64,000 nucleotides of DNA from Azospirillum ramasamyi (GTDB taxonomy: Bacteria > Pseudomonadota > Alphaproteobacteria > Azospirillales > Azospirillaceae). Both the position numbers and the translations under genes were made by a program. Positions 56,207-61,704 of this stretch are shown in pieces (position 1 is the first letter of the stretch; each line of letters opens with the position of its first letter). Below the pieces are notes generated by a model that had not been told where the DNA came from, made no database searches, and saw nothing but the letters and a program-made list of their open reading frames with translations. The stretch spans positions 401,001 to 465,000 of the forward strand of contig NZ_CP029829.1 of the NCBI RefSeq assembly GCF_003233655.1. The letters are read 5' to 3'.

Positions 56207-56435
56207 GGTCCCAGTCGAATGTCATCGCGATGCACTGTCTATGTGAATGATATGGTCATTTCGGTCGCGGTGGGAAGGGGCCGTTTTCAGTAACCCTCCA
56301 TTTGGCAGACCCTCCTTTGGTCCGCCGGCCCTCGCGCTACCCCATAATAGGAGACATCGCTTTCGGCCGGGCCGCAATCGGCGGAAAACCCTAGCCCCCT
56401 GTCCCCGGACCGTACGCATCCGGTGAGTGCCGCAG

Positions 56436-58058
56436 TCAGATTGCCTTCCAGTTCCAGGGCAGCAGTTCGGGCAGGCGGTTCTGCGGCAGGTCGGCGATGC
56501 GGGCCAGCACGTCGGCCAGCCACGCCTGCGGGTCAACTTCGTTGAGCTTGGCGGTGGTGATCAGGCCGTACATGATCGCCGCCCGCTGCCCGCCGCGATC
56601 GGAGCCGCAGAACAGCCACGCCTTTCTGCCCAGGGCGATCCCGCGCAGGCCGCGTTCGGCGGCGTTGTTCGTGAGACACAGCCGGCCGTCGCCGAGGAAG
56701 CGCGTGAAGCCGTCCCAGCGCGTCAGCATGTAGTCCATCGCCTTGGCCACGGGGGCATGGCGGGAGAGCCGGGCGCGCTCCGTCCGCATCCAGTTCTCCA
56801 GCGTGGCCACCAGGGCGACGCCGTGCTCCTGGCGGGCCGCCAGCCGCTCGGCCGCGGGCTTGCCGTTCAGGGCGCGCTCGAGATCGAAGAGGGCGTCGAT
56901 GTGGGTCACGGCCTCCAGCGCCAGCGGTGAGATCGGCGGGGCATCCTTGCCGCGTCTGGTGTTCGCGGCGATGTCGGCCAGCTTGAAGAAGCCGCGCCGG
57001 GCATGCGCCCAGCACAGTGCGGCGCTGATCGGCCCCGGTCGGCGCTCAGGTTCGTACAGCCGGTTATAGCCGGCGAACGCATCGGCCTGCAGCCAGCCCG
57101 TGAAGCCGGCCAGGTGCCGTTCGGGATGCTCGCCCTTGCGGTCTCGCGAATAGTGGAACAGCGCTGCCGGTGGGGCTTGGCCGGCAAACGGCCGGTCATC
57201 ACGCACATACACCCACAGCCGCCCGGTGTCGGTCTTGCCTTTGGCCAGCACGGGCACGGGCGTGTCGTCTCCATGCAGCCGATCCGCCGCCATCACATGC
57301 GAAGCGATCAGGTCGTGCAGCGGCTTCAGCACCGCGGCGGCGGCGCCCACCTGGTCGGCCAGGGTGGACAGGCTGAGCGGCACGCCCTCGCGCGCAAAGC
57401 GTTCGGCCTGCCGGTTCAGCGGCTGATGCTGGCCGAACTTCTCGAACAGGAGGGTGGCCAGCAGGTTGGGGCCGGCCCAGCCCCGTGGGGTGGCGTGGAA
57501 CGGCGCCGGCGGCTGGCTGATCGTCTCGCAGGCCCGGCAGGAGAACCGTTCCCGCACCGTCTGGATCACCTTCCACTGGCGCGGGATCACCTCCAGCGTC
57601 TCGGTGATCGTCTCGCCCAGCTTGCACAGCTTGTCCGAGCCGCAGCACGGGCAGCTCGCCGGTGCCGGCACAACGACGCGCTCGCGCGGCAGGTGGTCGG
57701 GGAAGGGTTGGCGTGATGGCCGTTTGCGGGTAAAGGCCGCCACCGCGGTGGTTTTGGCAGCGGCCTGCTCGGCCGCCAGTTCGTCCTCGCTGGCCGTCGC
57801 TTCCAGCTCTTCGAGCTGGAACTCCAACTGGTCCAGCAGACGCGCCTTGCGCTCGGAGCGCGTGCCGTAGAGCTCGCGCCGGAGTTTCTCGATTTCCAGC
57901 TTCAGGCCGGCGATCAGCGCCTCGGTGTTGGAGGCCATTGCCCTGGCCTGGGCCGCGTCGGCTTCCGCGGCGTCCGCCCGCGCCTCGGCCTGCGCCAAGG
58001 CAGCGCGCAAGTTGGCGACGTCGTCGGCCGAGGTGGAGGGGAGCGGGGCGGCGGTCAT
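56436..58058 (-). CDS. tnpC: IS66 transposase TnpC
   Basis: The product (540 aa) is the IS66 DDE transposase. It has an N-terminal coiled-coil region (about 10-70), then a zinc-finger-like part (CPCCGSDKLCKLGE and FSCRACETISQPP near 140-185) and the core with LHGDDTPVPVL, AFAGYNRLYE, CWAHARRGFFKLAD and LTNNAAERGLRG (catalytic Asp, Asp, Glu). Full length, no stops or frameshifts. Encoded after tnpB with a 79-base gap. Confidence 0.94.
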   Translation of the reverse strand: MTAAPLPSTSADDVANLRAALAQAEARADAAEADAAQARAMASNTEALIAGLKLEIEKLRRELYGTRSERKARLLDQLEFQLEELEATASEDELAAEQAAAKTTAVAAFTRKRPSRQPFPDHLPRERVVVPAPASCPCCGSDKLCKLGETITETLEVIPRQWKVIQTVRERFSCRACETISQPPAPFHATPRGWAGPNLLATLLFEKFGQHQPLNRQAERFAREGVPLSLSTLADQVGAAAAVLKPLHDLIASHVMAADRLHGDDTPVPVLAKGKTDTGRLWVYVRDDRPFAGQAPPAALFHYSRDRKGEHPERHLAGFTGWLQADAFAGYNRLYEPERRPGPISAALCWAHARRGFFKLADIAANTRRGKDAPPISPLALEAVTHIDALFDLERALNGKPAAERLAARQEHGVALVATLENWMRTERARLSRHAPVAKAMDYMLTRWDGFTRFLGDGRLCLTNNAAERGLRGIALGRKAWLFCGSDRGGQRAAIMYGLITTAKLNEVDPQAWLADVLARIADLPQNRLPELLPWNWKAI

Positions 58059-58137
58059 GGCGCCAGTTTACCTGGGAACGCGCCGTTGAGCCGCCACAAT
58101 CACCCCTGAACCGGTGCGTCGATTCACCGTGTCGCAG

Positions 58138-58485
58138 TCACCCCGCGGCCTCGGGGCGCCAAGTCTTCTGCGGGTTGCGCCAGTCGATGCCCTCGAGCAG
58201 ATAGCCCATCTGCCCAACCGAGATCGACACCGCGCCGTCCGCCGGCGTGGGCCAGATGAAGCGGCCCCGCTCCAGCCTCTTCATGAACAGGCAACTGCCC
58301 TGGCCGTCATACCAGATGATCTTCACCAGATCGCCGCGGCGCCCGCGGAAGATGAAGAGATGGCCGCTGTGCGGGTCTTGGGCGAAGCGTTCCTGCACCA
58401 GCAGCGCCAAACTCGCCCAGCCTTTGCGCATGTCGGTGTGTCCGCTGGCCAGCCACACCCGCACGCCACTCGGCACCGGGATCAT
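58138..58485 (-). CDS. tnpB: IS66 accessory protein TnpB
   Basis: The product (115 aa) has the IS66 Orf2 signature: MIPVPSGVRVWLASGHTDMR at the start, HLFIFRGRRGDLVKIIWYDG in the middle, and RFIWPTPADG. It is needed for transposition of IS66 elements. It overlaps tnpA by 4 bases (ATGA). Confidence 0.94.
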   Translation of the reverse strand: MIPVPSGVRVWLASGHTDMRKGWASLALLVQERFAQDPHSGHLFIFRGRRGDLVKIIWYDGQGSCLFMKRLERGRFIWPTPADGAVSISVGQMGYLLEGIDWRNPQKTWRPEAAG

Positions 58486-58892
58486 GCCAGGGCACCGACG
58501 ACGGCCGCCGCCAGAGCCGGATCGACCGGCCCTTCCAGACGCAGGCGTGCCCCGCCGGGCAGGATGACCTCGAGGATCGCCGGGCTCGTGGTCGGACCCG
58601 CTGGAGGCGGCAATGGTTCAGGGGGCTCCAAGACCGGCGGTTCTGTTACGGTCGGCTCCGGCGTGATGGTCACTGCGACGAAGCTGGACGGTTCGGCCAC
58701 CGCGCTCCCGCTCGCCTGCATCAGCCCTCGCCAGCGGTATAGCAGACTTTCGTGCACGCCCAGCCGGCGGGCCGCTTCCGTCACCACCACGCCGGGGCGG
58801 AACGCCTCCTCGACCATTCGGACCTTCTCCGCCGGCGTGTAATTCCGCCGCCGCTCCGTTCCCGTCAGAACCTCGACCCGCTGGTAAGCCAT
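58482..58892 (-). CDS. tnpA: IS66 accessory protein TnpA
   Basis: The product (136 aa) is the first IS66 gene. It holds a helix-turn-helix (RRNYTPAEKVRMVEEAFRPG, ARRLGVHESLLYRWR, about 12-55) and a Pro/Glu-rich middle followed by a short conserved end (LPGGARLRLEGPVD). The start at 58892 (MAYQRVEVL) was preferred over an in-frame extension at 58937. It overlaps tnpB by 4 bases. Confidence 0.88.
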   Translation of the reverse strand: MAYQRVEVLTGTERRRNYTPAEKVRMVEEAFRPGVVVTEAARRLGVHESLLYRWRGLMQASGSAVAEPSSFVAVTITPEPTVTEPPVLEPPEPLPPPAGPTTSPAILEVILPGGARLRLEGPVDPALAAAVVGALA

Positions 58893-59028
58893 GACGTTTG
58901 CAACTCGTTTGCGTCCGCGCAATGACGCGCCACGCAAATCTCAGACGTCGCCCCCTGCTTTGCCAAGGCGGCGCTCACCGGAGGCGTACCCCGGAACCGC
59001 GGGGATGGGGTGGGCCGCGAACGCAAAA

Positions 59029-59061
59029 CGGCCCGGCACCCCTGTCCGGGGTGCCGGGCCG
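59029..59061 (-). terminator. rho-independent terminator after phasin gene 1
   Basis: A perfect 14-bp stem (CGGCCCGGCACCCC with its complement) and 5-base loop, followed on the leftward strand by TTTTGC. It lies 64 bases past the stop of the 59125 phasin gene. Confidence 0.85.
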
Positions 59062-59124: not shown

Positions 59125-59604
59125 TCAGGCGGCGACCTGCTTCTTCGACAGGACCTCGACCGTGGCGTTGACGCGGGCGCTCAGCGGAGCCAGCGCCTCG
59201 TTGGCGATCTTGACGGTCAGCTCCTGCATCTTGGTGCTTTCCGACACCAGCGCGTCGATGCTCGCCTTGGCGTAGGCGTTCTGCAGTTCGACCAGTTCCT
59301 GGATCGTCTTCACCGCCAGCAGGGCCTTGGCGTTCGACACGCTCTTCTCCAGCGAGGACTGGGTGAAGGCGGTGACCTGCTTGCCGGCCTCTTCCGCGCC
59401 CTTGGCGACGACGGTGCCGGACTTCACGAAGGCATCGACGTTCTGCTTGGTCAGCACGGTCAGATCGTCATAGCCCTTCAGCACCTGGGCCGAGGCCTTT
59501 TCGATCTGCTCCTGCTGGGCCTTCACGAGGCCTTCCAGGTTCTGCTTGGCGGTGGCGATGGCGTCTTCGACGGACTTGGTGACGGCGGCGATCTGGTCGG
59601 ACAT
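59125..59604 (-). CDS. phasin family protein 1
   Basis: The product (159 aa) is a helical phasin that coats polyhydroxyalkanoate granules. The phasin_2-type segment has KSVSNAKALLAVKTIQELVELQNAYAK (about 87-113) and KIANEALAPLSARVNATVEV near the end. About 40% of residues are Ala, Lys, Glu or Val and the whole chain can form amphipathic helices. A second phasin (59920-60432) shares these motifs. Its promoter and a TGC-N3-GCA element lie at 59721-59768. Confidence 0.92.
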   Translation of the reverse strand: MSDQIAAVTKSVEDAIATAKQNLEGLVKAQQEQIEKASAQVLKGYDDLTVLTKQNVDAFVKSGTVVAKGAEEAGKQVTAFTQSSLEKSVSNAKALLAVKTIQELVELQNAYAKASIDALVSESTKMQELTVKIANEALAPLSARVNATVEVLSKKQVAA

Positions 59605-59720
59605 GGCTATGCTCCTCGCGCTTTCTCAGGGGTCAACCGCGCGGCCCCGACGATGCGGCGACCGGGTGCGGAGTGGGTTGAAACCCTCGGACCCCGTCAG
59701 GGCGGGCGCCCGAGATATGC

Positions 59721-59768
59721 TGCACTGCAACATGAGCGGAATGTAAGGGAGCCCGGGGGTGGTGTCAA
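59721..59768 (-). promoter_or_regulatory. phasin 1 promoter with TGC-N3-GCA operator
   Basis: Read leftward: -35 TTGACA (59768-59763), 17-base spacer, -10 TACATT (59745-59740), then 10 bases and TGCAGTGCA (59729-59721). The palindrome fits TGC-N3-GCA sites reported for the PHA regulators PhbF/PhaR. Its place just after -10 would allow repression. Confidence 0.7.
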
Positions 59769-59824
59769 TGGTTATTGTGCACCGCACAAAAATCCTGGCG
59801 TGCAAACCGGGCCCCTTCATACGC

Positions 59825-59863
59825 AAAAGGCCCGGCAACCGCGTGGAGGTTGCCGGGCCTTTT
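59825..59863. terminator. bidirectional terminator between the phasin genes
   Basis: AAAAGGCCCGGCAACC and its complement form a 16-bp stem with a 7-base loop, ending in TTTT in both directions. It terminates the leftward phasin 2 transcript, keeping the two genes as separate units. Confidence 0.88.
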
Positions 59864-59919
59864 GCGAAGCCGGGGTCCATGCCGAACCCCGGCCGTCATG
59901 TGCCGTCGGATCGGGCCGA

Positions 59920-60432
59920 TCAGGCGGCGATCGGCTTGGAGAGGGTTTCCACCGTCGCGGTGACGCGGGCGTTCAGCGGGGCCAGCGCCTCGTTGGTGAC
60001 CTTGGTGGTCAGCTCCTGCAGCCGGCTGGTCTCGGCCAGCATCGCGTCGAAGCTCGACTTCAGGAAATCGTTCTGCAGCTCGACGACTTCCTGCAGGGTC
60101 TTGGCGGCCAGCAGGGCCTTGCCGGTGGTGATCGACTTGTCCAGCGCCGACTGGCCGTAGGCGACGACCTCCCGGCCCAGATCCTCGGCGCCCTTGGCGG
60201 CGATGGTGCTGCTGGCGATCAGCGCCTCGACATTGGCCTTGCCGGTGGCCTGCAGGTCCTCGTAGCTCTTCAGCAGCTGGGCGGCGGTCTTCTCGAACTG
60301 CTCCTTGGCGACGGTCGCGGTCTGTTCGAACTGCTTGACCGTCTGCTCCTGGCCGGCCTTCACCAGACCCTCATACTGCTCCTTGGCCTGGGCGGCGACG
60401 GTTTCGAGCGACTTCGGCGTGAACTGGTTCAT
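59920..60432 (-). CDS. phasin family protein 2
   Basis: The product (170 aa) resembles phasin 1 through KSITTGKALLAAKTLQEVVELQNDFLK (about 95-121) and KVTNEALAPLNARVTATVET. The N-terminal half is Gln/Glu/Lys-rich and helical (EQYEGLVKAGQEQTVKQFEQ). Two closely related phasins in tandem suggest a duplication; each has its own promoter and terminator. PHA synthase genes are not in the window. Confidence 0.92.
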   Translation of the reverse strand: MNQFTPKSLETVAAQAKEQYEGLVKAGQEQTVKQFEQTATVAKEQFEKTAAQLLKSYEDLQATGKANVEALIASSTIAAKGAEDLGREVVAYGQSALDKSITTGKALLAAKTLQEVVELQNDFLKSSFDAMLAETSRLQELTTKVTNEALAPLNARVTATVETLSKPIAA

Positions 60433-60591
60433 GACGCGCGTTCCTTCCTGGCTGATGCCGACGTTTGGGCGAAGGGCCCTGCCGCCGCGGTGCGGGGGCG
60501 CGAAGCTTGCCGGCAGCGGTTTGCGTTGCGTTTATACGTTGTGCATCCGGCCCGGCCGGTCCCCGGAACCGCGATACGGCCCCGGAAATGC

Positions 60592-60639
60592 TGCACTGCA
60601 ATATGAGGATTTTATGGGCTACGCAGGGGGCGCTGTCAA
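60592..60639 (-). promoter_or_regulatory. phasin 2 promoter with TGC-N3-GCA operator
   Basis: Read leftward: -35 TTGACA (60639-60634), 17-base spacer, -10 CATAAA (60616-60611), then 10 bases and TGCAGTGCA (60600-60592). The geometry equals that of phasin 1 to the base, while the spacers differ in sequence. The rest of the 60433-60942 gap (about 510 bases) holds no gene I can support. Confidence 0.7.
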
Positions 60640-60942
60640 CAGTCCGTTCGGTAGGTACCCATATGGGCTGTTGCGCCGCATCATGCTCCGACCGCGCGAA
60701 ATTCCGATGAGCGCGGTATCGCGGACGTTGCCGGCGGGTTTCGTTGTCGCCGAACCGGCGGCAACCCCTCGATGAAGCAACTCCTTAACGAAGGATTTAC
60801 CGGCGATGGGACAAGTGTAGCGTGGCCGTGGGCGTGAATCGCCTCGGCCATTGGTCAGGTGCGGCGCTTGGACGCGGCGCTCCCGGCCCCCGCACTCCAG
60901 GCCGTCCGCACTCCAGGCCGCATCTTCGGGACGTTTTCGATC

Positions 60943-61704
60943 ATGACCTATTGCCTTGGCATCAAGACACGCGACGGCCTGATCGGTCTGTCGGACGGTC
61001 GCATCACCAGCGGGTCGCAGCTTTCGTCGGCCCGCAAGGTGACGATGATCGGCAGCGGCGGCGACCGCTTCTTCATCATGAATTCCGGCCTGCGCAGCGT
61101 GCGGGACAAGACGCTGGCCTATCTCCGCCGCGACATGCAGAAGCGCCGGGGTGAATCCTATTCGACCATGCTGGACGCCGTGTCGGCCTTCACCGCCTGC
61201 CTGCGGCAAGTCGCCGCGGAGGATAAGGAGTCGCTGGAGGCGTCGAAGCTCCACTTCAACCTGCACGCCATCATCGGCGGCCAGCTGGCCGAGGACCGGG
61301 AACCCTACATGTTCCTGGTCTATCCGGAAGGCAACTGGATCGAGGTGGACGAGCGCACGCCCTACCTGTCGATCGGCGCCACCGCCTACGGCAAGCCGAT
61401 CCTGGACCGGGCGCTGACCTACGGCACCGACATGCAGACGGCGCTGAAGCTGGCCTACCTGTCCTTCGACAGCACCCGCTTTTCCAGCAATGACGTCGGC
61501 TTTCCCATCGACATGGTGTCCTACCACGCGGAATCGCGGAGCTGGCGCCAGTCGAACTTCGACTACGACGACCTCAGCGAACAGCGCCAGTGGTGGAACC
61601 GCAACCTGACGGAACTGGCGCGCCGCATGCCGGACGGCCCGTGGGTCGAGACGCTGGTGCCGGAAGGGATGCGTCCGCTCCGGCCCGCCGAAGAGGCCGT
61701 CTGA
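60943..61704 (+). CDS. proteasome-like peptidase (Anbu/BPH type)
   Basis: The product (253 aa) starts MTYCLGIKTRDGLIGLSDGR. Removal of Met would expose Thr as the N-terminal nucleophile; Asp18, Arg20 and Lys32 fit the conserved Asp17/Lys33 places of beta-type proteasome subunits. AIIGGQ, YPEGNWIEVDE and SIGATAYGKPILDRAL continue the Anbu-like body. Such proteins form ring- or helix-shaped Ntn-hydrolases with unknown substrates. The usual Anbu neighbours (transglutaminase, alpha-E, ATP-grasp) are absent here. ATG 60943 is required by the Thr placement. Confidence 0.8.
   Translation: MTYCLGIKTRDGLIGLSDGRITSGSQLSSARKVTMIGSGGDRFFIMNSGLRSVRDKTLAYLRRDMQKRRGESYSTMLDAVSAFTACLRQVAAEDKESLEASKLHFNLHAIIGGQLAEDREPYMFLVYPEGNWIEVDERTPYLSIGATAYGKPILDRALTYGTDMQTALKLAYLSFDSTRFSSNDVGFPIDMVSYHAESRSWRQSNFDYDDLSEQRQWWNRNLTELARRMPDGPWVETLVPEGMRPLRPAEEAV

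Follow-up and report, generated by a model that had tools for sequence, protein, structure and literature searches.

PhaR-type operator sites at the twin phasin promoters of Azospirillum ramasamyi, a probable case of a known control system

Why should two neighboring phasin genes carry promoters that agree in spacing to the base, and which regulator would read them? The question was raised by a preliminary description of the Azospirillum ramasamyi DNA analyzed here (a stretch of 64 kb, “the window” in what follows), which proposed a repressor of the PhaR/PhbF type. Our answer is that the twin promoters are a well-supported, ordinary example of the known PhaR control system, and that their sites, judged from sequence, are very probably PhaR operators. 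PhaR represses phasin genes and senses PHB, and granule formation would release it from the DNA. The sites, their consensus fit, their conservation, the presence of a phaR gene, and a phasin-specific layout in an alphaproteobacterial sample were observed directly. The two genes, here called P1 and P2, are neighbors, head to tail, both on the minus strand.

59125..59604, minus strand: P1, phasin gene, 159 aa (Phasin_2 PF09361, E 6.4e-24)
59920..60432, minus strand: P2, phasin gene, 170 aa (Phasin_2 PF09361, E 2.4e-24)
59823..59865, no strand assigned: long inverted repeat, terminator-like, between P1 and P2 (read from sequence)
59029..59061, no strand assigned: inverted repeat, terminator-like, 3' of P1 (14-nt perfect arms)

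The terminator-like repeat at 59823..59865 would divide P1 and P2 into two transcription units; a terminator scan made no call at this repeat or at the one 3' of P1. The surroundings hold two further features. An IS66-family element with 22-nt terminal inverted repeats and three transposition genes occupies 56412-58989, between P1 and clpS, and its flanks have 7 of 8 bases in common, resembling a target-site repeat; the distance from clpS to P1 is a few hundred bases in all 13 named relatives. At 60943-61704 there is a gene with a Proteasome-family match (PF00227), divergent from the phasin genes.

The promoter elements are as follows.

59763..59768 (59768-59763), minus strand: -35 of P1, TTGACA (sequence, consensus scan)
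59740..59745, minus strand: -10 of P1, TACATT, four of six (sequence, consensus scan)
59729-59721, minus strand: TGCAGTGCA of the P1 promoter (read directly; pattern search)
60634..60639, minus strand: -35 of P2, TTGACA (sequence)
60611..60616, minus strand: -10 of P2 as first read, CATAAA, four of six (sequence)
60600-60592, minus strand: TGCAGTGCA of the P2 promoter (read directly; pattern search)

Direct reading and pattern search bear out the geometry given in the preliminary description: both promoters consist of TTGACA, 17 bases, a four-of-six -10, 10 bases, and TGCAGTGCA, in base-for-base agreement. When TTGACA-N33-TGCAGTGCA is searched for with up to two mismatches, the window yields two matches, both exact, a count that none of 100 shuffles reached. 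The genome search that had been proposed alongside this geometry, here with TTGACA-N{30,37}-TGCANTGCA, returned two matches in the 6.3-Mb genome, which are the P1 and P2 promoters, and none in the reversed control. A consensus promoter scan recognized the P1 promoter and not that of P2, for which there is an alternative -10, TAAAAT at 60614-60609, with a 19-base spacer.

The 9-base element turns out to be the center of something larger, and it has company.

59715..59735, minus strand: O1 of P1, predicted 21-bp palindromic operator centered on TGCAGTGCA, overlapping the predicted start site (S. meliloti PhaR consensus match)
60586..60606, minus strand: O1 of P2, predicted 21-bp operator centered on TGCAGTGCA (consensus match)
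59772..59792, minus strand: O2 of P1, predicted second operator TTGTGC-N3-GCACAA, which is TTTTTGTGCGGTGCACAATAA on the minus strand (S. meliloti consensus match)
60668..60684, minus strand: weak upstream operator of P2, displaced or decaying, ATGATGCGGCGCAACAG, 80 bp from O1 (R. eutropha motif with one mismatch; PhbF consensus)

The element had been described as a 9-mer, one to each promoter. It is present in both, but its real extent is a 21-bp palindrome, and the count of one intact site stands for P2 only; P1 has two, O2 at 59772-59792 having been overlooked. O2 lies three bases upstream of the P1 -35, and the centers of O1 and O2 are 57 bp apart. Both genes have a TGC-N3-GCA palindrome that fits a published PhaR consensus and that overlaps or adjoins the phasin core promoter, taking the start site as predicted.

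Several published consensus sequences lead to the same places. That of S. meliloti PhaR, WNWD2NYGCRNYGCRNH2WNW (PMC12542648), hits three places within the window's 64 kb, none of them outside the P1 and P2 promoters; 200 shuffles averaged 0.2 and never exceeded 2. The B. diazoefficiens PhaR consensus TGCRNYGCASMA (PMC6201568) has four matches in the window, all at these same three sites. The PhbF consensus of Herbaspirillum seropedicae, TG[N]TGC[N]3GCAA (PMC3206438), is exact in both O1 sites, on the opposite strand, with three matches in the window (shuffles mean 0.65, maximum 3). The R. eutropha motif, applied with a cut-off of two mismatches where the original authors allowed three, gave 12 window matches against 7.8 expected; its list includes both P1 operators and the weak one of P2, and O1 of P2 is absent from it, differing at more than two positions.

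How do these layouts compare with those already studied? P1 is arranged like phaP1 in Ralstonia eutropha (Cupriavidus necator), where PhaR has a site just 5' of the -35 and another around the start; steric hindrance and a lac-like arrangement have been proposed for that promoter (PMC12849132). R. eutropha phaP1 has a further predicted site inside the reading frame, whereas neither P1 nor P2 has one there by the R. eutropha motif (up to two mismatches) or the S. meliloti consensus. P2 is unlike R. eutropha phaP1 in having a single intact site, its O1 lying outside the R. eutropha motif at up to two mismatches, and shows no two-operator layout of that type save for the weak site at 60668-60684. 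It is much like SMa1961 of S. meliloti, where a single site lies between the -10 and the start site (PMC12542648). The phasin and depolymerase promoters of S. meliloti PhaR (AniA) carry the same 21-bp degenerate palindrome, and at phaP1 and phaP2 two sites flank the -35, 18 and 28 bp apart by table coordinates, closer than in P1 (PMC12542648). In B. diazoefficiens, the 12-mer listed for phaZ3, TGCAGTGCAGCA, is identical to O1; footprinting places the phaP1 sites on both sides of the -35 at a distance of 6 bp, while at phaP4 the site overlaps the -35, and none is at the start site, unlike O1. PhaR binding is better at phaP1, with two sites, than at phaP4, with one (PMC6201568). PhbF of H. seropedicae lowers expression from the phaP1 promoter; in the passages of that paper available to us, the footprint was made on the phbF promoter (PMC3206438).

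A repressor of this kind needs a gene, and the genome encodes PhaR: its one PHB_acc_N gene, at C1:1890374, has a product that carries PF07879 and PF05233 (PHB_acc_N and PHB_acc); PF07879 is present in all 45 genus genomes. There are six Phasin_2 genes in the genome, five of them with a PhaR-like palindrome upstream. By a weight matrix trained on O1 sites, the window's own included (its scores are thus evidence for the other phasin genes only), the sites outside the window score 17.3 bits at C1:1169198, 23.7 bits at C1:1363734, and 28.7 bits at C1:155355, and 8 Mb of random sequence of assumed base make-up gave no score of at least 17 bits. The phasin gene at C1:903331 has no credible upstream site, the best reaching 6.5 bits. 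At C1:1169198 the distance from TTGACT to the operator core is 37 bases, longer than in P1 and P2, so promoter-operator spacing is not fixed across the regulon.

PhaR autoregulation has been reported in some species. In the 3.2 kb of the phaR locus examined here there was no consensus match and no weight-matrix score of at least 6 bits that would mark an autoregulatory site; the S. meliloti phaR region likewise falls below the motif threshold and is bound only at high protein (PMC12542648). Please note that the S. meliloti consensus alone is unspecific genome-wide, where it hits 18 places and its reversed control 13, and we rejected it as a regulon finder because it is too loose in this genome; 4 of the 18 places are upstream of phasin genes, namely the three in the window and C1:155840. 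A patatin-like phospholipase gene (L019:1498-1518, C1:1276579) has an O1-like palindrome at its start, a one-mismatch site with no clear -35, and is a possible further PhaR target.

Conservation within Azospirillum was read from the loci of 13 named relatives, all with both genes, aligned with the window (14 sequences). For P1, pairwise identity is 41% upstream of O2, 84% in O2, 94% in the -35, 54% in the spacer, 67% in the -10, and 94% in the O1 core; for P2, it is 88% in the -35, 55% in the spacer, 86% in the -10, and 97% in the O1 core. The earlier view that geometry was kept while the rest drifted was right in kind, spacers standing at 54-55% against operator cores at 94-97%. Its term “base-exact” fits the two twins and is a local property, as gaps vary across genus and class. 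A pattern of TTGACN{31,38}TGCANTGCARCA has 78 matches in 42 of the 45 genus genomes and none in the reversed control; the other three genomes lack this strict pattern. From hexamer to operator core, the 78 gaps are 33 bases in 32 matches, 32 in 34, 31 in 7, 34 in 2, and 36-37 in 3, so that 75 of 78 fall at 31-34, within a search that admitted gaps of 30-37 only and to which wider ones are invisible.

The second operator has a history of its own. Among the promoters in hand, typed as P1 or P2 by best BLAST score and non-random as to O1, because many loci were fetched by the O1 pattern, every one of the 36 distinct P1-type promoters has an O2-type core with a TTGTGC arm, 57-60 bp from O1, and a core at 56-59 bp is present in 23 of 39 distinct P2-type promoters (four from outside the genus). 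The window's P2 is among the 16 P2-type promoters that have no O2 at this distance; seven of them keep an intact core 78-81 bp from O1, and in some others that core is degraded. On the simplest view, both twins go back to a promoter with two operators, and the O2 of P2 has been displaced or is decaying in the window's clade. Directly upstream of the P2 -35, at the position that O2 would take, lies CCGAACGGACTG (60640-60651), nearly invariant in the 16 promoters without the usual O2; it is possibly another element.

A separate observation concerns the 5' leader of P1 (59605-59717), which is strikingly conserved: two stretches of it, 33 and 62 alignment columns long, reach 84% pairwise identity, whereas the P2 leader shows 37% over its first 41 columns. 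It holds one predicted feature.

59687..59713, minus strand: predicted hairpin in the conserved P1 leader (fold; 8-pair core 59689-59711)

Of the 36 leaders found, 33 were aligned, L125, L128, and L134 being dropped as unlike the rest, and the distinct rows number 32. In these 32 rows the 8-pair core is paired in 256 of 256 cells, and one pair is changed on both sides (covarying). Two of five shuffle measures for the hairpin were not above chance (500/500 for pairs changed on both sides, 257/500 for further pair types), and an RNA family search of the region gave three weak matches, all far below gathering scores. The leader as a stable RNA was rejected, its folding energy being no better than that of shuffles. 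A leader peptide, from an ATG at 59733-59731 in a 35-codon frame through the leader, was rejected as well, since frame, stop, and length vary among relatives.

Is the two-operator layout peculiar to Azospirillum? A DNA-only pattern, TTGTGC-N3-GCACA-N{4,16}-TTGAC-N{28,38}-TGC-N3-GCA, was run against a class sample of 385 Alphaproteobacteria genomes and matched in 27 of them, from 17 genera, with a control of zero. The downstream gene, taken as the longest reading frame starting within 260 bases of the match, was Phasin_2 in all 27, the window's own P1 included; at L167 the longest frame had no match and a second frame gave Phasin_2. PhaR is encoded in 27 of 27 matching genomes versus 231 of 385 overall (compared by eye), which would have a probability of 5e-7 if the genomes were independent, which they are not, given their shared ancestry. 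The strict layout is found in only 27 of the 231 PhaR-bearing genomes of the sample. Across the 27 matches the O1/O2 center distance is 54-61 bp and the promoter-operator gap is 30-35, neither fixed at one value. The TTGTGC-type O2 is imposed by the search pattern, and O1 has a TTGTGC arm in 3 of the 27, so the difference in arm type between O1 and O2 is a tendency, not a rule.

What, then, does the matched spacing of the twins mean? It may merely have been inherited: a tandem duplication would have copied gene and promoter together, and short time or later exchange would have kept the spacing, leaving the PhaR sites real and the exact spacing without functional message. We consider this an even call. 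P1 and P2 are adjacent, and the window's P1 protein shares about 51% identity with P2-type proteins of relatives; a duplication has been suggested for phaP2 and phaP3 of A. brasilense, which may be the same pair. Among the close pairs of the genus (<1.5 kb), the gaps of the two twins agree in 27 of 31 (33 in 13 pairs, 32 in 14), and the gap is able to vary, from 31 to 34 in the named relatives and the window (P2 of L063 left unread in the alignment) and across the wider range of the class matches. Equal spacing may have been inherited in part from tandem gene duplication, and for that reason is not independent evidence of constraint. However, the spacer has drifted to little more than half identity while the length of the gap holds within about two bases, and 20 of the 27 class matches (17 genera) have gaps of 32-33; the drifted spacer with a steady gap, together with these class-wide gaps, points to a positional constraint that is real but tolerant.

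The identity of the regulator is a different matter. Some other protein with a TGC-N3-GCA-like site might bind the palindromes instead of PhaR, and the literature leaves room for it: no binding data for Azospirillum PhaR, and no title or abstract opening on PhaR operators in this genus, came up in the open-licence literature searched, and a 2025 paper, in the part available, calls the A. brasilense phaR homolog functionally unstudied. We nevertheless think this very unlikely, given the match to the PhaR consensus of three different genera, the 12-mer shared with the B. diazoefficiens phaZ3 site, and the fact that every one of the class-wide matches stands at a phasin gene in a genome encoding PhaR. 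Chance resemblance without function is harder still to credit, and we treat its probability as close to negligible. Short elements do occur at chance frequency, as the TGCAGTGCA 9-mer with one mismatch shows no enrichment in the window (14 vs. 14.5 expected), nor does the 13-mer TTGCAGTGCAGCA with up to two mismatches in the genome (250 vs. 256 in the reversed control). The composite pattern, on the other hand, is found twice in the genome and nowhere else, nearly all genus genomes carry the promoter pattern, and the operator cores are conserved in the alignments. Exact copies of TTGCAGTGCAGCA number four in the genome; two of these (L004:1501-1513 and L032:1501-1513) lie away from all six phasin genes and lack the TTGACA geometry.

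We therefore return to PhaR. The preliminary reading of a PhaR/PhbF-type repressor is supported by the consensus fits in three genera, the PhaR gene in the genome, and operator conservation. In the model that we favor, PhaR without polymer would cover O1, and with it the predicted start site, in P1 as well as P2, and in P1 it would also occupy O2 just upstream of the -35. Bound PhaR would block RNA polymerase at TTGACA/-10 promoters presumably read by the housekeeping sigma factor. As PHB granules form, they would pull PhaR off the DNA, by analogy with PhaR in other bacteria; for R. eutropha, titration of PhaR by PHB is the stated model, and for S. meliloti it is said to be confirmed (PMC12542648). 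Once PhaR is released, both P1 and P2 would be expressed, and the phasins would coat the granules. Binding by PhaR, start sites, repression, and release by PHB are all predictions for P1 and P2. P1, with two intact sites, is probably under tighter PhaR control than P2, with one, because PhaR of B. diazoefficiens binds better to phaP1, with its two sites, than to the single site of phaP4.

A broader reading can be offered tentatively, and we give it somewhat less than an even chance. The two-operator, lac-like layout, with a TTGTGC-type O2 upstream of the -35, a mostly TG(T/C)TGC-type O1 at the start, and centers 54-61 bp apart, may be an old default of alphaproteobacterial phasin promoters, common to R. 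eutropha, which, like H. seropedicae, is a betaproteobacterium. The operator types would differ by position, and a locus whose twins keep or lose O2 would let a single PHB sensor act at two repression thresholds.

Azospirillum stores PHB, and base-level operator predictions are now available for its PhaR. The analysis adds the predicted second operator O2 and a DNA pattern whose 27 matches in 385 genomes all precede phasin genes. It is now a testable question whether the number of operators sets the PHB threshold of each phasin gene.
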